From NCBI RefSeq assembly GCF_022213955.1, contig NZ_JAKNTW010000034.1:1-64000 (forward strand): a DNA stretch of 64,000 bases, read 5' to 3'. This document shows, one piece after another, positions 2,609-15,062 of this stretch. This DNA comes from Dolomitihabitans soli (GTDB taxonomy: Bacteria > Actinomycetota > Actinomycetes > Streptosporangiales > Streptosporangiaceae). A program made the translations under genes and the position numbers. The first letter of the stretch is position 1; every line of letters begins with the position of its first letter. A model generated the notes under the pieces. It did no database searches, was not told the DNA's origin, and saw nothing but the letters and a program-made list of their open reading frames with translations.

Positions 2609-3091
2609 TCAGACACTGCGGGTGTGAGCGTTGCACGTTGGGTCGATGCCTTTCTGGTAGAGGAAGGTGACCTTGAGGTCGACGTGCCACTTGTCCGAGT
2701 ACTTCACTCTTTCGCCGGGGTCCTTGGAGCGGCTGCTGATGTCGTTGTCTTCGAACTTCCAGGACCACAGCGTTTGGTCGGGCAGATAGGGCAGGTCCTT
2801 GCGGATCCTCACTCTCACCTTGTACGAGCTTCCGGTGTCCGCGCGGTCATATTCGATCTTGTCGATCTCGTCGTAGCCGTTTTTCGGCGTGTAGTAGACC
2901 GAGACTCCGGCCCACCTAAGGTGATAGCTGCCACTGCTGCTGCCAACGTTGCAATCGATGGAGAGCTTCTTCTGCGCGGCGGAGCTCGCGGTGGAGTTCG
3001 AAGCCGAAGCGCCCGCCGCGGGGATGATCGACAACGCCACGCCCACGGTTGCGAAGATCGCCGTCTTCTTCAGGATGCCTGTCACTCGCAT
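2609..3091 (-). CDS. Small secreted protein of unknown function, paralogue B
   Basis: The protein has 160 residues with a signal peptide nearly identical to the paralogue at 479-961. The mature domains have diverged but keep the CNV, YYTPKNG, RIRKDL, RVKYSDKWHVD and PTCNAHTRSV segments and the two cysteines. The ATG at 3091 follows GAGAGGG. The family is not recognised. Faster divergence of the mature region than of the flanking DNA hints that the exported part is under diversifying or relaxed selection. Confidence 0.85.
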   Translation of the reverse strand: MRVTGILKKTAIFATVGVALSIIPAAGASASNSTASSAAQKKLSIDCNVGSSSGSYHLRWAGVSVYYTPKNGYDEIDKIEYDRADTGSSYKVRVRIRKDLPYLPDQTLWSWKFEDNDISSRSKDPGERVKYSDKWHVDLKVTFLYQKGIDPTCNAHTRSV

Positions 3092-5639: not shown

Positions 5640-5727
5640 TTCGCGCGCCGCGTTGGCCGTGATTATTTGCTGTTCCGCACCACGAGCCGTAACCCTTGGG
5701 AATCATCCTCCTCAACAAGGAGTACCC

Positions 5728-6210
5728 GTGAAGACGACGGCATTCATCTCTGGTGCGCTGGTGACCGCCATGGCGGCATTAGTCCTGGCCAGCACACCGG
5801 CGGCGGCGGATCCCAAGCATCAGCTGAACGTGGCCCTCTCGCTCACTAAGAACACCGCGAGCAGTCAGACCTACTGGGCCAACATGCGCCGCAACCAGAA
5901 CGAGCCTTATGTCAAGAGGTGGAGCTTCTACTGGTGGACCGACGGCTGTACGGTGCCCAAGAAGATCGGTAACTCAGACTACTGGAAGGGAGTCTTCGCG
6001 ACGCCCTGCGCTCGCCACGACTTCGGCTACCGCAACGTCAAGCGGCTCGCGAGCTCCAGCAAGTGGAAGAACACCTACAAAAAGACCGTCGATGACGCGT
6101 TCCTCTTCGATATGGGAAACGTGTGCGTGAAATTCTCCAAGACGAAGAAGGCGTCGTGCCGAATTGCGGCGGCGGCGTTCTACGCCGTGACCAGGGTGCG
6201 CGAGAGCTAG
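5728..6210 (+). CDS. Secreted prokaryotic phospholipase A2
   Basis: The 160-residue protein has a signal peptide ending STPAAA near residue 27. The mature domain matches bacterial phospholipase A2: the calcium-loop DGC near 72-74 and the catalytic CARHDFGYRN with the His-Asp pair near 97-98, with further cysteines for two disulfides. These enzymes release fatty acid from the sn-2 position of phospholipids outside the cell. I chose the GTG at 5728 because AAGGAG lies directly upstream and the signal peptide begins VKTTAFIS. A SARP-like box lies upstream. Confidence 0.88.
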   Translation: MKTTAFISGALVTAMAALVLASTPAAADPKHQLNVALSLTKNTASSQTYWANMRRNQNEPYVKRWSFYWWTDGCTVPKKIGNSDYWKGVFATPCARHDFGYRNVKRLASSSKWKNTYKKTVDDAFLFDMGNVCVKFSKTKKASCRIAAAAFYAVTRVRES

Positions 6211-6515: not shown

Positions 6516-7262
6516 ATGTTCCAACTGTTGGGACGCTTGGCGGTGGTCGACGGCGGCGGCCGCGCGATCAACATCCGGGCCGCGAAGCAGCAGGCGATCC
6601 TCGCCGTTCTCATGCTGTCCCCGGGCGGAGTGGTCAGCGTGGATCGGCTGATGACGGAGCTCTGGCCGAACGAGCCGCCGGCCACGGCCAGAGCGAGTCT
6701 GCAAACGTATGTTTACCGCCTGCGACGCACTCTGGCGCCGCTTGCCGCTCACGGTGTCGACCTGACCACCCTCGGGAACGGCTACACCCTGGTCGTCCCG
6801 GATCGAGCGGTGGACGTCAGGGCGTTCGAGCAGTGCTTCACCCGGGGATCGGAGGCTCTGGCCGCGGGCAATCCGGCGGTGGCGGCCGGTCTGCTGCGGG
6901 AGGCGCTGGACATGTGGCACGGTCCGCTGGCGCCGGAGATCGACGTCGAAACCGTCCGCTGCGAGCGCCGTCGCCTGGACGCGGCGCACTTGACCGCATC
7001 CGAGCTCTGGGTGCAGGCCGAGCTGCGGCTCGGCCTCTACAACTGGGTCATCCCGGAATTGGAGCGCCTCGTCGAGGCCCACCCGTTCCGTGAGTCCCTG
7101 TGGGAGATGCTGCTGCGTGCCCTGACCGGGCTCGGCCGCCGTGCCGAAGCGCTCGCCGCCTACCGGCGCATGCGTGACATCCTCAGTACGGAACTCGGCA
7201 TCGAACCGGCCGACTACCTACGCCGGCAGCATCAGGACATACTCCGAGGCGCGTCGTTCTAG
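6516..7262 (+). CDS. Short SARP family transcriptional regulator
   Basis: The 248 residues comprise an OmpR-type winged-helix domain (about 1-90, with VSVDRLMTELWP and SLQTYVYRLRRTL) and a bacterial transcriptional activation domain (about 95-245, with LGIEPADYLRRQHQDIL). There is no NB-ARC or TPR extension, so it resembles pathway-specific activators such as ActII-ORF4 or RedD. ATG follows GGATCGGAGGTGC with good spacing. It converges on the cysteine-rich peptide operon. Four copies of a direct-repeat box in this region, one in its own promoter, are its likely targets. Confidence 0.9.
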   Translation: MFQLLGRLAVVDGGGRAINIRAAKQQAILAVLMLSPGGVVSVDRLMTELWPNEPPATARASLQTYVYRLRRTLAPLAAHGVDLTTLGNGYTLVVPDRAVDVRAFEQCFTRGSEALAAGNPAVAAGLLREALDMWHGPLAPEIDVETVRCERRRLDAAHLTASELWVQAELRLGLYNWVIPELERLVEAHPFRESLWEMLLRALTGLGRRAEALAAYRRMRDILSTELGIEPADYLRRQHQDILRGASF

Positions 7263-7426: not shown

Positions 7427-7470
7427 AAGGGACCGCCCCCTGGCCGGCGCCTGCCAGGGGGCGGTCCCTT
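7427..7470. terminator. Strong bidirectional terminator
   Basis: Eighteen-base arms (AAGGGACCGCCCCCTGGC and its complement) enclose an 8-nt loop, followed on the plus strand by T-rich sequence. It lies eight bases past the last peptide gene and separates it from the SARP gene. Confidence 0.85.
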
Positions 7471-7477
7471 TACTTAC

Positions 7478-7663
7478 CTAGGCGCACTGCTTTCTCACGT
7501 AGACCGAGCAGTCGCTCCTCCAGCATGTGTAGTAAGCGCAACAGATGCTGCCGGTGCAGCTCGTGTTGGTGAGAACGCAACGTGCGGTGCATGCGGCCTG
7601 CGCGTCGCCGGCCGGTACGACGAAGGCGACGATCCGGTCCGCCAAGGCGGTGATGGATTTCAC
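7478..7663 (-). CDS. Cysteine-rich precursor peptide 2
   Basis: This is a 61-residue peptide starting at the GTG at 7663, with GAGAAGG eight bases upstream. The leader (about 1-23) is ITALADRIVAFVVPAGDAQA, and the core begins ACTARCV. It contains eight cysteines (C-x3-C, C, CC, C, C, C) within 36 residues. The leader shares DRIV and the A-x-A|AC junction with the neighbouring peptide. The A-x-A motif suits a type I (S26) signal peptidase, and one is encoded in the same operon, but the leader lacks a long hydrophobic core. It is probably exported by the adjacent ABC protein. The function, antimicrobial or signal, is unknown. Confidence 0.7.
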   Translation of the reverse strand: MKSITALADRIVAFVVPAGDAQAACTARCVLTNTSCTGSICCAYYTCWRSDCSVYVRKQCA

Positions 7664-7687
7664 CTGTCCCACCTTCTCTCCGTCGAG

Positions 7688-7849
7688 TTACTCGCACATG
7701 GTGACCGTGCGGTATGTGCAGTTGGAGTAATAGCACCTCATCTTGTAGCACCCGGTGTTCGGGTCGTAGCTGATCTGCACGCACCTCGGGGTGCACGCCG
7801 CGTCAGCCTTGACCGTGGGAATCAACCGGTCGATGAGCTTGTCCAGCAT
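7688..7849 (-). CDS. Cysteine-rich precursor peptide 1
   Basis: The 53-residue peptide opens MLDKLIDRLIPTVKADA, an amphipathic leader, and the core runs from ACTPRCV to the C-terminal CE with six cysteines. An ideal ribosome site, AAAGGAGGTGA, precedes the ATG at 7849. The TGA in that site is the stop codon of the ABC transporter, so the peptide is translationally coupled to it. The core motif AC-T-x-R-C-V and the A-x-A junction are shared with precursor 2. I do not recognise the family. Confidence 0.75.
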   Translation of the reverse strand: MLDKLIDRLIPTVKADAACTPRCVQISYDPNTGCYKMRCYYSNCTYRTVTMCE

Positions 7850-7856
7850 TCTGTCT

Positions 7857-9716
7857 TCACCTCCTTTCTGTCTCGGGTTCACTGAACGCGGTTTCACGGG
7901 AGGCCGTCTCGTGATATCCGCGGGCTTGTAGGCGGAAGAGGCGGGCGTAGATGCCGTCCACCGCCATGAGGTCGTCGTGGCTTCCCCGCTCGGCGACGCC
8001 CCCGTCCTTCAGGACGATGATCAGGTCGGCGTCCCGCACCGTGTTCAGCCGGTGGGAGATGAGCAGGCTGGTCTGGCCCGCGCGGTGGTGGCGCATCCGG
8101 GCGTGCACGTCGGCCTCGGCTTCGGGATCGAGACCGGAACTCGGTTCGTCGAGGATCATCAAGTCCCGTCCGTCGCGGAGGAAGGCTCTGGCCAGGGCGG
8201 TTCGCTGCCACTGGCCGCCGGAGAGCACGACACCGGTCGAGGAGTCCTCGCGGTCCTCCTCGCTGGAGAACATCCGGGTGAGCAGCGTGTCGTAGCCGCG
8301 GGGAAGGGCCGCCAGCAGCTCGTCCACCCCGGCCCTTCGCGCGGCGGCGCGGATCCGGTTCAGGTCGTCACGGGCACCGACGTCTCCCACGCCGATGTTG
8401 TCGCGGGCGGAGAAGTCGTAGGCCATGTGGTCTTGGAAGACGCCGCTGATCCGCTCCCGCAGCGCCTCCGGCCGGACGTCGCGCAGGTCGACTCCGTCCC
8501 AGAGGATCGCTCCCCGGCTCGGGTCGTAGAACCGGCAGAGCAGTTTGACGAGCGTGCTCTTGCCCGCGCCGTTGAGCCCGACCAGCGCCACGCCCGCGCC
8601 GTACGGGATGAACAGGTCGACGCCGCGCAGGATCCAGGGATGGTCGTCGCTGTAGCGGAACCACACGTCGCGCAGTTCGATCCCCCGGCGCAGCGGCGGC
8701 AGCGGCGCGGGGCCGGCCGGCGCGACGAGGTCGGGCTCGGCCCTGACCACCGCCACGTAGTGGCCGAAGAGCCGCAGGTTGTGATCGGTGGTCGCGATGC
8801 CATTGATCAGGGTGTCGAGCCCGCCCTGGATGGCGACGACGGCGACGGTGAACATCGACACGTCCCCGACGGTGAGTGTGCCGGTCCGGGCCGCGGCTAT
8901 GGCCCAGACGAGCCCGCCCCCGGCCACCACAGCGGACAGCAGGGCGAGCGCCCCCTCCGCCGACAGCTCCTTGCGGTCCATCCGCTGCTTGCCCGCGTGA
9001 GCCGTTGCCAGCTCGGCCATGAGACGGCCGCGCAGGAATCCGCCCAGGTTGAAGAGCCTGATCTCCTTGGCCGCCTCGACCGTGCTGAGCAGGGTGCTGT
9101 AGAAGAACTGCCGTCGCTCCGCCGGGCCGATCTCCCACATCAAGGTCGTGCGCTGGCGGGACAGCTTCAGCTGCGCGATGAGTGCCGGTACGGCGGCGCT
9201 CAGCACGATCAGCGTCATGGTAGGACTGATCACCAGCACGGACCCGACGAAGCCGATCAAGGTGACGGCGGAGCGGACCAGGCCGAATGCCTCGGTGACG
9301 ATGCCATCGGCCCTGGACGTCCCCTCCTGGGCCAGGCGCAACCGGTCGAGGAAGCGCGGATCCTCGAAAGGCCGGAGCCCGGGAAACCGTGCCGTGGCCG
9401 CGAAGAGCCGGTCCGTCGTGGTGGCCGCCATGGCGCGGCCGATCTGGCTGCCGAGGTACCGCGAACAGTGCGGCAGGATCGCGGCGGCGACGCCGGTACC
9501 GGCCAGCCCCGCGGCGAGGCCCAGCAGATCGGCCAGGGAGGCCGCCCCGGTGAGGCCGTCGATGACCAGCTTGGTCAGCCAGGCCACCGCGACCGGTGCC
9601 GTGGCCGTGCCCAGCAGGATGACCGCGTACCCGATCATGGGACCGGCTGCGCTGCTCCAGCCGGTCGCCGCAGCCTCACGCGCGGAGGCGGTCAGGCGCA
9701 CCCCGTCAACGGCCAT
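7857..9716 (-). CDS. ABC transporter, fused membrane and ATPase domains
   Basis: The 619-residue protein has an N-terminal six-helix exporter domain (about 1-330) and an ATPase domain with Walker A GLNGAGKST, signature LSGGQWQR and Walker B LMILDEPSSGLD. It resembles half-transporters that export peptides or modified peptides. It lacks an N-terminal C39 peptidase, so leader removal must be done by another protein, plausibly the S26 enzyme upstream. ATG 9716 lies inside the end of the peptidase gene (11-base overlap), which implies coupling. The likely substrate is the two cysteine-rich peptides. Confidence 0.9.
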   Translation of the reverse strand: MAVDGVRLTASAREAAATGWSSAAGPMIGYAVILLGTATAPVAVAWLTKLVIDGLTGAASLADLLGLAAGLAGTGVAAAILPHCSRYLGSQIGRAMAATTTDRLFAATARFPGLRPFEDPRFLDRLRLAQEGTSRADGIVTEAFGLVRSAVTLIGFVGSVLVISPTMTLIVLSAAVPALIAQLKLSRQRTTLMWEIGPAERRQFFYSTLLSTVEAAKEIRLFNLGGFLRGRLMAELATAHAGKQRMDRKELSAEGALALLSAVVAGGGLVWAIAAARTGTLTVGDVSMFTVAVVAIQGGLDTLINGIATTDHNLRLFGHYVAVVRAEPDLVAPAGPAPLPPLRRGIELRDVWFRYSDDHPWILRGVDLFIPYGAGVALVGLNGAGKSTLVKLLCRFYDPSRGAILWDGVDLRDVRPEALRERISGVFQDHMAYDFSARDNIGVGDVGARDDLNRIRAAARRAGVDELLAALPRGYDTLLTRMFSSEEDREDSSTGVVLSGGQWQRTALARAFLRDGRDLMILDEPSSGLDPEAEADVHARMRHHRAGQTSLLISHRLNTVRDADLIIVLKDGGVAERGSHDDLMAVDGIYARLFRLQARGYHETASRETAFSEPETERR

Positions 9717-10137
9717 GCTGCGCCTCCATCTTCCTGACGGTGACGGCCTGGAGGTCGTCGGCGTGGAAGAAGCCGTGCTCGCGGGAGTCGAAGCTGACCT
9801 CGGTGTTGTCACCGATCAGGACGAACCTGCCGGCCGGGACGACGTCGTCGGCGACGACCTTCCGTACCTGCTCCGGGACCGGATCGCCGGGCAGGGCGGC
9901 GACACGTTTGATCAGGAATTTGCCGCCGGTCGGGAAAGGGCTCGAGACGACGGCGATCTGCCCGTTACGCAGCGCCGCCAGGTCCGTGCGCCGGGACAGG
10001 AGCCGCTCCCCATGGGTCAGCGCCGGGGCCATGCTGTCGCCGCAGACGCGGATCACCAGGTACGTCGCGCGCAGCCGTACGGCCAGCAGGGCCAGACCCG
10101 CGAGCCCGCACGCCGCCGCGAGGAGCGCCCAGCTCAC
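9706..10137 (-). CDS. S26 family signal peptidase
   Basis: The 143-residue protein has one N-terminal membrane helix (about 3-22). The catalytic Ser is in CGDSMAPAL (about 35), and the general-base Lys is in FLIKRVAALPGD (about 77). A C-terminal GDN motif with SFDSREHGFF follows. It is shorter than housekeeping SipS-type enzymes. GTG at 10137 overlaps the thioredoxin stop by four bases. Its place between thioredoxin and exporter genes suggests it cleaves the A-x-A leaders of the two peptides. Confidence 0.88.
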   Translation of the reverse strand: MSWALLAAACGLAGLALLAVRLRATYLVIRVCGDSMAPALTHGERLLSRRTDLAALRNGQIAVVSSPFPTGGKFLIKRVAALPGDPVPEQVRKVVADDVVPAGRFVLIGDNTEVSFDSREHGFFHADDLQAVTVRKMEAQHGR

Positions 10138-10646
10138 AGCGCCTTGACTTCGGTGGGCAGGGTGTGACCGCTGCTGACGACCGTGTCCCCGGAGTCGATC
10201 GTGATGACCGTCGGGTATCCGTTGACCTTGAACGCCGTCTGGAGGGGTCCCTGGGGCGCCTCCGTGACGACACGTGCCACCTCCGCGAGCTGTTCGATGT
10301 CGGCTGCCGTGTCCTCACCGGGGACGGCGACGACCACGGCGAGCACGGCGTCCGACGTGTCGCGTGCCCGCTCCACGAAGAGCGGGAGCAGGTCCTTGCA
10401 GGGCTGGCAGCCCTGGGAGAAGAAGCCGACCAGCGCGGGTGTGCCCAGGAGTTCGCCGGAGATCGGCTCGCCGCTCGTGGTCGTGGCGGCGAACTGCGGG
10501 ACCCTCGCGCCGGGCGAGAGGCCTTCCGCGGGCATCGACGGCGGCAAGCTCTGCTTGCGCAGCCGGCGGATCACGCCGACGGTCAGCAGCATGTTCACCA
10601 TGCACAGCAGACCGACCAGCACGACCGCGGCGACCAGGTACTGCAT
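10134..10646 (-). CDS. Membrane-anchored thioredoxin-like (TlpA/MauD-type) protein
   Basis: The protein has 170 residues with an N-terminal membrane helix (YLVAAVVLVGLLCMVNMLL) and an extracytoplasmic thioredoxin fold. The redox motif is CQPC (about 79-82), preceded by ALVGFFSQG and followed later by the cis-Pro segment NGYPTV. It would reduce or isomerise disulfides outside the membrane. The start at 10646 is chosen for GGGGAGA at proper spacing. It is coupled to the S26 gene. In this operon the obvious clients are the cysteine-rich peptides. Confidence 0.88.
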   Translation of the reverse strand: MQYLVAAVVLVGLLCMVNMLLTVGVIRRLRKQSLPPSMPAEGLSPGARVPQFAATTTSGEPISGELLGTPALVGFFSQGCQPCKDLLPLFVERARDTSDAVLAVVVAVPGEDTAADIEQLAEVARVVTEAPQGPLQTAFKVNGYPTVITIDSGDTVVSSGHTLPTEVKAL

Positions 10647-10805
10647 CACACTCTCCCCGTTCTGTCCATGAACATCTCGGCGATGTCGTCGAAGGCGATG
10701 AACACGCCCGCCCCCGGCCAGCCCTGCCGGTATCGCGGCAACGGCGAACACGGCCCCGATCAGGACCTGGCACGTGACGAGCAGGAGATCTACGATCCGG
10801 ATATT
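10647..10805 (-). pseudogene. MauE-like redox membrane protein remnant
   Basis: A frame without a start codon reads LLLVTCQVLIGAVFAVAAI, which fits the first membrane helix of MauE/DoxX-type partners of MauD. In a second frame, FIAFDDIAEMFMDRTGRV ends with a TGA overlapping the thioredoxin ATG. Only about 53 codons remain of a gene normally around 150-190 codons. An internal deletion with a frameshift explains both pieces. The operon's quinone-linked redox partner has therefore probably been lost. Confidence 0.55.
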
Positions 10806-11010
10806 TCATGACCCCGCTAGCACGGCCCTCGCGCGCCGCTAGCCCGGCCGGATCAGGCCGCGGTGGGGCCGGAGCTGCTCATCCCGGGACCTGAGCGCCG
10901 GTTCGAGGACGAGCGATGGCAATACCGGCTGTTAGCCGCGAACCAGCTGAAGTCATCTTTCTGTTCGCAACCTTGCAAAAATCGGTAATCCCAATCAGGA
11001 TGAAAAGCCA

Positions 11011-11712
11011 ATGAGATCGGCTAACGGGCGCCCTCGCGCCTTCCCCTTTTACATCGTGTGCGACGTATCGCATTCGATGCACGCCGCGCGTGAGGACGGA
11101 CGGCCCACCCCCTTCGAGGTTCTCTCCGACTGTGTGAGTGAGCTGCTTTTCGAGCTGGAGGCGGGCGATCCCGGCGTCAGTGAGGCCGCGCATGTCGCCG
11201 TGGTGTCCTTCTCCGACAAGGTCGAGCTGGTGCTTCCGCTGACCAGGCCGTGCGACGCGATCCGGGTTCCGGCCCTGAAACCCGGCAGGCAGACGAATTA
11301 TCTGGCGGTCTTCAGCGAGCTCGTGAAGATCATTGAGAAGGATTACCGGAAGCTGTCCAAGCAATTCGACGTGCGGGCGCCGGTCGTCTTCTTCATCACG
11401 GACGGCGAGCCGTACATTGGCGAAAACCATCAGGACGTCGAGATCTGGGCGCCCGCGCGCGACCGGCTGGCGAGCCTTCACCCGGCGCCGTACATCGTGG
11501 CGCTCGGATTCGGGACGGTGCAGGAGGACACCCTGCGGCGGGTCGCCACCTCCCTCCGGGGCGAAGTGCTGGCCTTCGCGGGCGAGATCGCGACAGGGGC
11601 GGCCACCGTGCTGCACGGCATCGCGCAGGCCGTCTCGGACAGCATCAGCGCCTCGGTCAACAGGAACACGACCGTTCTGCGTGGACCCGGCGGAATGCGG
11701 CAGCTGAGATGA
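11011..11712 (+). CDS. VWA domain protein (TerY-like)
   Basis: The 233-residue protein is a single von Willebrand A domain with a MIDAS metal site (DVSHSM near 18-23, a Thr in GRQTNY and ITDGEP near 131). It has no signal peptide and is cytoplasmic. Its size and partners (PP2C phosphatase and kinases directly downstream) match the TerY-P signalling triad described for tellurium-resistance-associated systems. The stop overlaps the next start by four bases. Confidence 0.88.
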   Translation: MRSANGRPRAFPFYIVCDVSHSMHAAREDGRPTPFEVLSDCVSELLFELEAGDPGVSEAAHVAVVSFSDKVELVLPLTRPCDAIRVPALKPGRQTNYLAVFSELVKIIEKDYRKLSKQFDVRAPVVFFITDGEPYIGENHQDVEIWAPARDRLASLHPAPYIVALGFGTVQEDTLRRVATSLRGEVLAFAGEIATGAATVLHGIAQAVSDSISASVNRNTTVLRGPGGMRQLR

Positions 11713-12797
11713 TCAGGGCGACGCTGGCGGGATTACTCCTGGTTATCGGATTCGGCCCGGTGGCAGCGAACCCTGGTCCGTCGCCGGAGCCGACGGTAAT
11801 GGTGACCATGACACCCGGTCCGCGGCAGGGCGGCGGGACGGCGTCGGGCTGGCCGCTGTGGATCCTGTTCGGCATCGCCGGCGGCGGCGCCGTACTCCTC
11901 GGGCAGTTGCTGCTCGGCCGCAGGACCCGCACCGCGGCCGACGGCAGAACGTCACTCGGTCCGCTCCCTCAGCCGCTGCCCGTCCTGCTGGCGGGCGGGG
12001 CGGACTCGCGCGCCCCGGGCGTCGCACTCGACGGGGGGATGCTCGCGCAGACCACGGTCCGCGCCGTGAGCATCCGCGGCCGGCGCCATCGATATCGCGG
12101 CGAACCCCTGCAGGATGCCTACGCCGTACGGCTGAGTGCGGACGGACGATGGGTCATCGCGGCCGTCGCTGACGGGCTGGGTAGCACGCTGCACGCCGAA
12201 CACGCCGCCGCGGTGGCCGTGCGCGCCGCCACGAACCTCTCCCTGACCCCCGACCCCGGCTGGCACGCGGTCTTCGCCACCGTCGCCGGGGAGGTCATGC
12301 GCGCCACCGCCCGGCTCGGCGGCCAGATCCCGCCGGCGACCACTGGCAGGCACAGCGCCGCAGCATCGAATCCGCCCGCCACGACGCTGACGATCGGGGT
12401 GGTCCCCGCGGACGGCAGGCGCGGGATCGCCGCCTGCGCGGTCATCGGGGACTCGCCGGCGCTGTGGCTCCATGACGGGATGTGGACCGAGATCTTCCCA
12501 CCTGACGGACAGCGACCGGGCAACGTCACGTCCGCCCTGCCGGAGGACCTCGGTGAGCTGCGCGAACGGCAGATCGATTGGGGGCCGGGTGATGTGCTCG
12601 TGCTGTGCAGCGACGGGTTCGGGACGGCCATGGGCGGCGGCGGCAGCGCGCTCGCCCAGCGGCTCGTCACATCGTGGAGTTCTCCGCCCGCGCTGCGCAG
12701 CTTCCTGCACGATGTGGATTTCCATCTGTCGACTTACGACGACGACCGGACCGTTCTGGCGTTGTGGGCGGGCCGTCACGACACGGCTGTCCTGTGA
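11709..12797 (+). CDS. Membrane-associated PP2C family phosphatase
   Basis: The 362-residue protein has an N-terminal hydrophobic segment, a Pro-rich linker, a second membrane helix (about 47-66) and a PP2C-like domain. Metal-binding motifs appear as DGLGS in the middle and LCSDGFG towards the end, followed by DDRTVL. It would dephosphorylate targets of the kinases downstream. It is translationally coupled to the vWA gene. Confidence 0.82.
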   Translation: MIRATLAGLLLVIGFGPVAANPGPSPEPTVMVTMTPGPRQGGGTASGWPLWILFGIAGGGAVLLGQLLLGRRTRTAADGRTSLGPLPQPLPVLLAGGADSRAPGVALDGGMLAQTTVRAVSIRGRRHRYRGEPLQDAYAVRLSADGRWVIAAVADGLGSTLHAEHAAAVAVRAATNLSLTPDPGWHAVFATVAGEVMRATARLGGQIPPATTGRHSAAASNPPATTLTIGVVPADGRRGIAACAVIGDSPALWLHDGMWTEIFPPDGQRPGNVTSALPEDLGELRERQIDWGPGDVLVLCSDGFGTAMGGGGSALAQRLVTSWSSPPALRSFLHDVDFHLSTYDDDRTVLALWAGRHDTAVL

Positions 12798-12818
12798 CAG
12801 GAGTGCGGCGGCAGAAAT

Positions 12819-13856
12819 ATGAATCCCCCAGATGTGGTCGAGGAAGCGGATCTGACGCCCCCCACGGACGCCGATGTCTACTACCTGCGCCCGGGCGGTC
12901 AGGCTCGCAGCCTGGCGCCGTGCGAGGTCAGCGGCGTCCCTGGCCGGTTTCTGTTCAAACGGTACGACGAGGAGACGCTGGCGGGGCTGGACGAGGACGC
13001 TCTGCTCGCCATGGTGCGCTGGAGGCGTGAACTTCCCCGGCAGGACCGGGCGACACTCGATCGGCTCTGTGCGTGGCCGGTCGCGGCGGTCCGGCACGAC
13101 CGGGTCACCGGTATCTTGATCAGACCCGCTCCCGAGCAGATGTTCACCGAGCTCAGCACCCGCCTGGCGCCGCGGCACCTGGATGAGCTCACCCGGTCGC
13201 CCGAGCGGGTGAAAGCCCTTCGCGACCACTACGGCACGCGCTACTACGAGCCGCCCTACAAGCTGGCCGTCCTCGGCCAGTTGCTCGTGACGGTGCAGTG
13301 GCTGCACGAGCAGGGCTATGTGGTGGGCGATCTGCAACTGCGCAACGCCGTCTTCACCATCGACCCGGCACCCGCGGTATACCTGCTGGACTGCGACTCC
13401 TGCCTGCCGGTCGGAGGCTGCGGTGCCTTGCCGGAGGTCGATCCCGAGCAGTGGAAACTCCCCCGTGAAGGCGGATTCACCCCGGAGTCCGACTATTACA
13501 AGTTCGCCTGGGCCGTCGTGCGGTGCCTCCAGGAGAGCGCCGAGGCGTGGTCGCTCGACGAGGCCGCGCTCGCCAGGGTCCTGCCATTGCGGCATCGCCG
13601 CCTGATAGGGCAGTGCCTGGACGGTGCACCGGAATCGGTGGACACCGCGCGATGGCGGTCGGCGGGCGAGTCGTGGCGATGGCTTGTCACTCCCGAACGC
13701 ATCTACGTCGAGACCGACTCCAACCTGCGTGAGGCGTGGCGGCGGGGGAAGTCCGCGGTCGGGGACGACTCGCGGGGTCGGCACCGGGGAATCGTGGTGC
13801 TGATCGTCGTCCTGGCGGCGATCGCCGTTGTCGTCGCGGTCACGTTGGGAGTCTGA
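12819..13856 (+). CDS. Atypical protein kinase with C-terminal membrane anchor
   Basis: The 345 residues resemble the kinase partner of vWA/PP2C triads. The catalytic loop is degenerate (VVGDLQLRNAVF in place of HRDLKPEN) and the metal motif is LLDCDSC. GRFLFKRYDEE could supply the ATP lysine. A single membrane helix ends the protein (IVVLIVVLAAIAVVVAVTL). Activity cannot be judged from the sequence. The next kinase starts at the base after its stop codon. Confidence 0.75.
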   Translation: MNPPDVVEEADLTPPTDADVYYLRPGGQARSLAPCEVSGVPGRFLFKRYDEETLAGLDEDALLAMVRWRRELPRQDRATLDRLCAWPVAAVRHDRVTGILIRPAPEQMFTELSTRLAPRHLDELTRSPERVKALRDHYGTRYYEPPYKLAVLGQLLVTVQWLHEQGYVVGDLQLRNAVFTIDPAPAVYLLDCDSCLPVGGCGALPEVDPEQWKLPREGGFTPESDYYKFAWAVVRCLQESAEAWSLDEAALARVLPLRHRRLIGQCLDGAPESVDTARWRSAGESWRWLVTPERIYVETDSNLREAWRRGKSAVGDDSRGRHRGIVVLIVVLAAIAVVVAVTLGV

Positions 13857-15062
13857 ATGAACACCGGCGAGCCACGGCGCATCGGGCCCTACGAGGTGCT
13901 CGGCTGCCTGGGTGTCGGCGGTCAGGGCACGGTCTACCTCGCGCAGGGCGAGGCGGGCAGGGTCGCGATCAAGGTGATCCACGCGCAGGGGGCAGCCGAC
14001 CCGAGGGCGCGCAGGCGGTTCGCGGACGAGGTGGCCTTCGCGTCGCGGGTGCCCAGGGCGTACACGGCGATGATCCTCGACGCCGACATCGACCGTGACC
14101 GGCCGTACATCGTGAGCGAATACGTGGAAGGCCCGTCGCTGCAGAAGCTCGTCGAAACGCACGGGCCGCTGTCGGGGTCCGCGCTTGAGCGCCTGGCGAC
14201 CTATACGGCCACCGCCTTGGCGGCGATCCATGGCGTGGGAGTCATCCACCTGGATTTCAAGCCCGCCAACGTCATCATCGGGCCGGACGGACCACGTGTC
14301 GTGGACTTCGGGGTCGCACGGGCCCTGGAGGCGACCGCCGCGATCACCACGACCGTGGGAACTCCCGGCTATCTCGCACCGGAGCAGGTCGGAGGGGTCG
14401 ACGCCGAAGCGGTTCCCCCCGCTGTAGGTCCCCCCGCCGATGTGCACGCGTGGGCGGGCACAGTGTATTTCGCCGCCACTGGCAAGGTGCCGTTCACGGG
14501 GAACAACGTGGCCGTCATCATCAACCGTGTCCTGACCGAGACCCCCGACGTGGGAGTGATATCCGAGCCGCTGCGTTCACTGATCGCCGACTGCCTCGCC
14601 AAGGAACCGGTGCGGCGGCCCGCCACCATGGAACTGCTCGGCCGTCTCGTGGGGCAGCAGTCGGAGACCGCGCAGGCGGCGGTGCCGCATACCGGGATCT
14701 TGCCGGAAATCCTCGGAACGCTGAAGGGGACCACCACGCTGGGCAGCGGGCCCGCGGCCGACATCGTGATCCACGGGGAGGGGATCGCCCCGGCGCACGC
14801 CACCGTCCGCAAGGTGAGCGCCGGCTACCGGCTGCATGACCACAGCAGCGGCCTGGGGACGTTCATCGACGGCCGCCCTGTTCTCTATGCGACCCTGCGA
14901 CCAGGTGATCGGTTCACGATCGGTACGGCGGTGCTCCGCCTCACCGAGGCGGGGGAGTTGGAGCGCGTACGGCTCGGCCGAATGTCCGCCGCGCGCTGGT
15001 GGCTGCTGATCTTCCTCATCGCGGCAGTGGCGCTGACGGTGATCGCCGTGGTCACGGGATAG
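13857..15062 (+). CDS. Ser/Thr protein kinase with FHA domain and C-terminal membrane helix
   Basis: The kinase domain spans about 10-260, with GVGGQGTVY, VAIKVI (Lys 39), catalytic loop HLDFKPANV (Asp 133) and DFG (150). The Arg of the usual HRD is Leu, so it belongs to the non-RD class. An FHA phosphothreonine-binding domain follows (about 293-360, with HATVRKV and GTFIDG). One membrane helix near the end (about 376-398) leaves only a few residues outside. The fusion of kinase and FHA suggests recruitment of phosphorylated partners such as the upstream pseudokinase. Confidence 0.9.
   Translation: MNTGEPRRIGPYEVLGCLGVGGQGTVYLAQGEAGRVAIKVIHAQGAADPRARRRFADEVAFASRVPRAYTAMILDADIDRDRPYIVSEYVEGPSLQKLVETHGPLSGSALERLATYTATALAAIHGVGVIHLDFKPANVIIGPDGPRVVDFGVARALEATAAITTTVGTPGYLAPEQVGGVDAEAVPPAVGPPADVHAWAGTVYFAATGKVPFTGNNVAVIINRVLTETPDVGVISEPLRSLIADCLAKEPVRRPATMELLGRLVGQQSETAQAAVPHTGILPEILGTLKGTTTLGSGPAADIVIHGEGIAPAHATVRKVSAGYRLHDHSSGLGTFIDGRPVLYATLRPGDRFTIGTAVLRLTEAGELERVRLGRMSAARWWLLIFLIAAVALTVIAVVTG

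Follow-up and report, generated by a model that had tools for sequence, protein, structure and literature searches.

The first 64,000 nucleotides of contig NZ_JAKNTW010000034.1 of Dolomitihabitans soli (assembly GCF_022213955.1), which were analysed as a whole and are referred to here as the window, raise the question of what two very small, cysteine-rich genes are doing at the end of a leftward operon for a thioredoxin, a signal peptidase and an exporter. An earlier reading of the letters of this DNA (hereafter, the original prediction) had proposed an undescribed pathway, in which the peptides would mature by disulfide formation and by cleavage of a leader outside the membrane. The comparisons described below show the window operon to be one case of a large and recurrent actinomycete system, and we consider it very probable that its genes form a cassette that exports disulfide-rich peptides with the guidance of a leader. 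This recurring gene set seems to produce highly variable cysteine-rich mini-proteins, to export and trim them and to knit them together, as cone snails do with their venom peptides.

Gene content of the window operon

On the minus strand, from position 10805 down to 7478, a run of genes encodes in succession a MauE remnant, a TlpA thioredoxin, an S26 signal peptidase, an ABC exporter, peptide 1 and peptide 2 (Table 1). The genes, their strand and their order agree with the original prediction, including the CQPC motif of TlpA and the six and eight cysteines of the two peptides. Stop/start overlaps run from the MauE remnant through the ABC gene: the stop of TlpA overlaps the start of S26 (GTGA), and the ATG of the ABC gene sits within the 3′ end of the S26 gene. 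The ATG of peptide 1 is preceded by AGGAGGTGA, a strong ribosome site that overlaps the ABC stop. A strong hairpin with a short U run follows peptide 2 and is likely to be the end of the operon transcript.

The exporter gave a clear match to PF00005, with PF00664 under its cut-off. A C39 domain had been said to be missing from it, and no C39 match was found in the window exporter, the one exporter scanned with Pfam for this domain. Likewise, no modifying enzyme of ribosomally synthesized and post-translationally modified peptides (RiPPs) was found among the window proteins scanned with Pfam; the flanking genes of other loci were scanned in part.

The gene set recurs together with a cysteine-rich precursor

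A search with a TlpA profile returned 35 named loci (L042-L076) from Nonomuraea, Streptomyces, Catellatospora, Lentzea, Longispora, Microtetraspora, Virgisporangium, Planomonospora, Sphaerisporangium and Actinomadura, including one weak match, without the module, from Pseudonocardia. Within the window's family, 82 of the 200 genomes searched, its own included, had a match, and the best match was fetched from 60 of them. The set scanned for precursors thus comprised 99 loci (the window, L008, L010, L011 and L042-L136), four of which (L087, L108, L111 and L116) duplicate others. Homologous operons consistently lacking small cysteine-rich genes had been named at the outset as the result that would speak against the proposal, and the opposite was found: a precursor with the family leader and four or more cysteines is present in 91 of the 99 loci (88 of 95 without the four repeats).

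Module genes were counted in 96 locus entries, with L007 taken apart from L008, the four repeats removed and matches required to exceed 60 bits; some of these entries are cut short by the end of a contig or contain split genes. All four module genes were present in 66 entries, ABC, S26 and TlpA in 13 others, and different subsets in the remaining 17. The commonest gene orders, where P denotes the precursor, are P-MauE-TlpA-ABC-S26 (24/94) and MauE-TlpA-ABC-S26-P (12/94). Most precursors (110/114) lie no more than 1.5 kb from a module gene, and 105/114 are oriented like the module gene nearest to them. At one locus (L133:3781-4976, plus strand), a tandem array of four or more precursors that differ in their cores stands ahead of a single module; the genome that carries this locus (G062) has nine matches.

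When the 200 family genomes were searched with the two queries separately, 67 matched both, 15 TlpA only, 1 the precursor only (G027) and 117 neither (Fisher p 4e-37); the precursor profile was itself built from TlpA-anchored loci, and with limited candidates per genome misses are likely. A smaller run concurs, in that the precursor was found in 5 of 31 genomes, all five of which were TlpA-positive in the larger search. At E 1e-25, a phylum-wide TlpA search, confined to the best 8 candidates per genome, matched 2 of 396 genomes, the window's own among them, and has little bearing on distribution.

The cassette also occurs on plasmids. TlpA relatives were found in 28 records of a plasmid collection at E 1e-15, and in the three that were examined, the annotated plasmids of Streptomyces atratus, S. 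sp. NBC_00376 and S. clavuligerus, precursor, MauE, TlpA, ABC and S26 are consecutive (the MauE of NBC_00376 is readable though unannotated). Their precursors, annotated as hypothetical proteins, are 73, 69, 68 and 66 aa long with 6, 8, 6 and 6 cysteines, respectively. A tblastn search of the plasmids with the L010 precursor gave no match.

A common leader and a hypervariable core

The leader profile, built from 24 seeds, corresponds to the consensus [RK]xIxxL[GA]DRLLxxLVPxxxAxA, after which a hypervariable core begins. With the leaders aligned on the proline, D occupies P-8 in 91, R occupies P-7 in 88, and A occupies P+4 in 96 and P+6 in 101 of 102 precursors; [AV]xA is found in 100/102 overall, and AxA at P+4/P+6 in 60 of the 64 precursors of L077-L136, loci that gave no seed sequences as fetched (a few repeat seed loci). 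The seed pattern demanded two small residues after the proline and so carries some bias towards AxA; the fixed position and the alanine were not built in. The motif AC-T-x-R-C-V, by which the original prediction proposed to recognize related frames, is not a family signature: it is common to the two window peptides and their orthologues and is missing from the family consensus, whose common part is the leader. A GG, GA or GS near the cleavage site occurs in 9/102 precursors.

All 109 leader-profile matches of at least 15 bits have four or more cysteines. When the cores were cut after AxA, the number of cysteines was even in 106/106 unique cores, as compared with 392/582 control frames with four or more (for two L085 entries the cut fell within the core, altering their count and leaving parity the same). 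There are 79 cysteine spacing patterns among these 106 cores, in which Gly (10%) and Tyr (8.9%) are abundant. Median pairwise identity is 0.44 for the leader (shuffled 0.125), whereas for the core it is 0.30 (shuffled 0.27). The ratio of nonsynonymous to synonymous differences (pN/pS), pooled by group, ranged from 0.11 to 0.57 in leaders and from 0.33 to 0.67 in TlpA. In cores it ranged from 0.24 to 0.68 (seven groups, an eighth being without synonymous changes in the core), and it was higher in the core than in the leader in six of the seven groups. Given the contrast in identity and the ratios below 1, the cores are genes under constraint that are diverging fast; such ratios show purifying selection and are not evidence of positive selection.

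The precursors might instead be ordinary Sec substrates, with the ABC protein exporting something else and S26 serving as a spare housekeeping signal peptidase. In favour of this idea, AxA is the general motif of type I signal peptidases. However, the leader contains a conserved DR, and its longest run without charged residues, N, Q, H or Pro has a median of 6 and a maximum of 11 (102 leaders), which is short for a Sec signal. Its mean hydrophobic moment is 0.54 vs 0.31 when shuffled (8.75% of single shuffles reach 0.54), such that the leader resembles an amphipathic helix more closely than it does a Sec signal. In addition, S26, ABC and precursor are clustered in most loci. We therefore judge the Sec-substrate explanation very improbable.

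The window peptides are conserved despite decay of MauE

Peptide 2 (w2) comprises the leader MKSITALADRIVAFVVPAGDAQA and a predicted core of 38 aa with 8 cysteines, and peptide 1 (w1) comprises the short leader MLDKLIDRLIPTVKADA and a predicted core of 36 aa with 6 cysteines. Both were among the seeds of the leader profile, which scores them at 36 and 21.6 bits, respectively. The closest relatives of the operon are in Nonomuraea: L042 (Nonomuraea sp. SBT364), with 90.5% DNA identity over 3.3 kb, and L044 (N. fuscirosea) carry orthologues of both peptides at the same position with all 6 and all 8 cysteines kept, and a further w2 orthologue (75%) is found in N. gerenzanensis. The third codon position is the most divergent in five of six pairwise comparisons, the exception being peptide 1 of the window against L042. 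Within this group, pN/pS is 0.11 for the leader and 0.24 for the core of peptide 1, and 0.47 and 0.25, respectively, for peptide 2.

These observations bear on the simplest objection, namely that the small frames arose by chance next to a transport operon, GC-rich DNA being full of small frames. It is contradicted by the conservation of the orthologues, by pN/pS, by the recurrence of the leader in further loci and by the co-occurrence across genomes, and we give it practically no credence.

The window MauE is a pseudogene: relative to the intact MauE of L042, some 366 nt are deleted and the frame is broken. The L044 MauE has a larger and different deletion. Since both peptides are kept in the window, L042 and L044 despite loss of MauE in two of them, the MauE of another cassette may serve the window genome, and that of a paralogous cassette probably does so.

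A sequence search found no solved relatives of the precursors. A structure model of w2 was not usable (predicted local distance difference test (pLDDT) 60; three strands at ~66-78; best Foldseek match E 0.4).

Module proteins and regulators

The Ser (SMxP) and Lys (KR) boxes of S26 are present in 84 of 85 stretches, the one exception being a piece of the L008 gene, which is frameshifted, and S35 and K77 are invariant among 18 aligned S26 proteins. Most of the PDB entries related to it in sequence are type I signal peptidases. An AlphaFold2 model (pLDDT 92.8) found Staphylococcus aureus SpsB as its best Foldseek match (E 3.9e-6), and the template-modelling scores against the top three matches were 0.62-0.65 by query length. 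By its catalytic boxes and predicted fold, the module S26 is a type I signal peptidase, with the precursor as its putative substrate.

A regular expression for CxxC matched 95 of 99 TlpA stretches. Two of the four misses are pieces of the split L060 gene, one of which has CLPC, and L076 has CAPC, leaving one L109 copy that is truly without the motif. CxCFG is present in 75/75 MauE stretches, and PF07291 was above its cut-off in each of four MauE proteins tested, all from outside the window. Taken with the fixed AxA and the S26 dyad, the CxCFG of MauE strengthens the case for the proposed maturation by disulfide formation and extracytoplasmic leader cleavage.

Apart from the four module genes, only a SARP-like regulator recurs widely near the cassettes. 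BLAST clustering placed it (61 frames) in 54/94 loci, and the next-commonest cluster numbers 15. With 49 BTAD matches in the window's own 10.8 Mb genome, ~6 would be expected in the 1.29 Mb of loci.

A different use of the same proteins can be imagined, in which the cysteines bind metal, or carry another modification, such as a thioether or heterocycle, introduced by enzymes whose genes lie elsewhere, while TlpA and MauE only keep them reduced. TlpA/ResA-type proteins are often reductants, the sequence relatives of the module TlpA are ResA and StoA, and weak matches, one precursor each, were obtained to cinnamycin-type and thiazolylpeptide models (E 0.021, 0.0096 and 0.0055). On the other hand, the unbroken even parity of cysteines fits pairing, no second gene recurs as widely as the regulator, and the window proteins scanned include no RiPP enzyme, so that we regard this alternative as unlikely. 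Matches of that kind were also too weak for identification of the peptides as lanthipeptides or thiopeptides. As for a role in phage defence, which was rejected, no PADLOC model was matched by the tested peptides, S26, TlpA or MauE, and the ABC matches look like those of a generic ATPase.

Other cassettes and orphan precursors in the same genome

Further cassettes lie on contigs C50/C58, C47 and C17 of the 10.8 Mb genome (Table 1). The precursor profile A4 was used to find orphan precursors, around each of which 13-14 kb was fetched. Three are intact, have the same leader and are without a module gene in the fetched DNA; these would need machinery in trans. One orphan precursor lies ~16 kb from the C47 cassette. 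The genome holds at least nine intact precursors, and decayed remnants hint at birth and death of precursor genes.

Table 1. Features of the window operon and of related elements in the same genome
Feature	Sequence	Position	Strand	Description
Precursor peptide 2 (w2)	window	7478..7663	-	61 aa, GTG start, 8 Cys
Precursor peptide 1 (w1)	window	7688..7849	-	53 aa, ATG start, 6 Cys
ABC exporter, transmembrane and ATPase parts	window	7857..9716	-	Pfam, NCBIfam; 1090 bits with the module profile, which includes this exporter itself
S26 (type I) signal peptidase, 143 aa	window	9706..10137	-	PF10502 E 2e-17; Ser/Lys dyad (GDSMAP, LIKR)
Membrane-anchored TlpA/MauD-like thioredoxin, CQPC	window	10134..10646	-	Pfam/NCBIfam; profile and PDB sequence relatives
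MauE pseudogene, two frames	window	10646..10805	-	Comparison with L042; start uncertain
SARP-family (BTAD) regulator	window	6516..7262	+	PF03704 E 4e-40; convergent with the peptide operon
Strong hairpin	window	7427..7470		Directly 3′ of peptide 2; -43.8 kcal/mol, z -6.2
Cassette	C50/C58			MauE, TlpA, ABC, frameshifted S26, one precursor
Cassette	C47			Precursor, TlpA, ABC; MauE and S26 divergent
Cassette	C17			Two precursors, MauE, TlpA, ABC, S26
TlpA fragment	C45			At contig edge
S26 of paralogous cassette	L008	979-1417	-	Split by frameshift; precursor frame of the cassette open
Orphan precursor	L147	6172-6393	-	
Orphan precursor	L148	6948-7169	-	
Orphan precursor	L149	6356-6544	+	
Decayed precursor remnant	L150	6224-6433	-	
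Decayed precursor remnant	L008	449-541	-	

Several neighbours of the operon were seen in passing. Upstream of it and divergent (11011-15062, plus strand) lie consecutive genes for a VWA protein, a PP2C phosphatase, a product without Pfam match and an FHA-bearing Ser/Thr kinase, and close to it (5653-6210, plus strand) is a gene for a prokaryotic phospholipase A2 (PF09056). At 479-1000 and 2609-3091 (minus strand), two similar proteins with signal-like N-termini, the first without Pfam match, are encoded in near-duplicate surroundings.

Proposed mechanism and likely use

The gene set and its recurrence, the leader with its AxA, the even number of cysteines, purifying selection and genome co-occurrence are all evident in the sequences, and taken together they suggest the following scheme. 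A precursor, with its short amphipathic-helix-like leader ending in the fixed P-x-x-x-A-x-A, would be synthesized in the cytoplasm with its cysteines reduced, and the cassette ABC transporter would export it. Outside, the membrane-anchored S26 would cleave after AxA, and TlpA, its redox state maintained by MauE, would oxidize or isomerize the even-numbered cysteines to give a knotted core; we infer the direction of this redox chemistry, as we do activation of the gene set by the SARP regulator. One genome may hold several cassettes with unrelated cores, along with orphan precursors that would use machinery in trans.

Several findings weigh against this scheme, in addition to the reductant habit of TlpA/ResA-type proteins. 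As noted, 13/96 locus entries have ABC, S26 and TlpA with no MauE above 60 bits. Eight of the 99 loci are without a recognized precursor (L066, L068, L070, L076, L087, which equals L068, L099, L128 and L131), and the sub-threshold candidate at L128 has 7 cysteines. With a cruder cut of the core, parity is even in 102/107. By pN/pS, neither the w2 core nor the cores of the L061-like group of seven are faster than their leaders. The C58 cassette, with its frameshifted S26, would need another peptidase. The regulator near the plasmid operons is BTAD in S. atratus and AraC or helix-turn-helix in the other two. BLAST clustering found no recurrent immunity gene in the locus neighbourhoods, which weakens a bacteriocin reading, and counts across loci and genomes are not independent by descent.

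As to what the peptides are for, antagonism against neighbouring microbes is, by a weaker inference, the most likely use, one that we favour by a small degree because the cores are hypervariable, occur several per genome and are also found on plasmids. The same machinery could instead make colony signals or morphogens (a surfactant, a coat or a pheromone) in place of weapons. The missing immunity gene, the adjacent regulators and the abundance of Gly and Tyr in the cores would all suit such a role. Nevertheless, the diversity of cysteine spacings and the near-shuffled identity of the cores exceed what a shared structural role needs, and some cassettes are plasmid-borne; we hold signals or morphogens to be a possible but rather less likely outcome than weapons.

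The cassettes probably represent an uncharacterized class of bacterial ribosomal peptides, spread over several actinomycete families and plasmids, in which one leader and a four-gene module accept almost any cysteine-rich core. If so, they would amount to a natural and evolvable system for the display of disulfide-knotted mini-proteins, with a parallel in the diversification of conotoxins. Disulfide-rich peptides of this size are stable scaffolds for drugs and antimicrobials, and most of the well-known ones are eukaryotic. Were the mechanism right, the 79 spacings would constitute a ready library, and leader plus module might be used to make knotted peptides in Streptomyces. It would also provide a plausible role for the MauE/TlpA/ABC/S26 operons whose small genes are annotated as hypothetical proteins on the three plasmids.

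Comparison with known systems

The claim that the pathway is undescribed holds in part. Among the matches listed from the open-licence literature, we found no characterized product of such cassettes, and just one paper that links MauE with peptides (PMC7794033). That paper, on decRiPPter, predates our analysis, and the idea is in that respect not wholly new: three Streptomyces candidate families with mauE, one of them also with mauD, had already been listed, all with precursors that carry 8 or more cysteines, and the authors proposed a role in precursor modification (Kloosterman et al., 2020; PMC7794033). As in the cassette, a small cysteine-rich precursor lies beside mauE and, in one family, mauD. 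The text of that paper available to us names no common leader, AxA, S26/ABC set or wider distribution, and gives no product for these families; it also describes methylamine dehydrogenase maturation by MauD/MauE (PMC7794033). Compared by description, the decRiPPter mauE families are likely to be the same system.

TMcin of staphylococci shares the logic of the cassette, with a dedicated membrane protease for the leader, a thiol oxidoreductase and an ABC exporter, and its disulfide is needed for killing (preprint, PMC13252029). Its own parts are an S2P-type protease, a DsbA-like oxidoreductase, separate ABC subunits and an escort protein, for a transmembrane peptide with a single disulfide; as described in the portion of the preprint available, MauE, TlpA and S26 do not belong to it (PMC13252029). 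TMcin, so far as that portion goes, shows that a leader protease, a thiol oxidoreductase and an ABC exporter can make a bacteriocin, with other parts.

Actifensins and actinodefensins, like the cassette products, combine an actinobacterial leader with a cysteine-rich mature peptide, ABC genes and several paralogues (PMC6989792). At their locus, several ABC genes are accompanied by LuxR and a subtilisin-like protease, and MauE, TlpA and S26 are not named in the sections of that paper at hand (PMC6989792). The bacterial defensin pattern CX(2,18)CX(3)CX(2,12)CX(4,17)CXC, as given in the available part of its source (PMC11561630), fits only 1/106 cores. On the gene set and cysteine pattern as these sources describe them, actifensin or defensin identity was ruled out.

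The cassette also differs from bacteriocins processed by C39, in that the window exporter gave no match to this domain, GG, GA or GS is infrequent near the cleavage site, and there is a separate S26 with AxA. Class II bacteriocins and glycocins with a C39-ABC exporter do have a leader peptide, ABC export and, sometimes, thioredoxin-type helpers. In methylamine dehydrogenase maturation, MauE and a thioredoxin serve a cysteine-rich client, but the client of the cassette is, by contrast, a short, variable, exported peptide. A likeness in overall design is also seen in the conotoxins, in which a conserved leader precedes a hypervariable cysteine-rich core; these use the eukaryotic secretory route, and the resemblance claims no homology.

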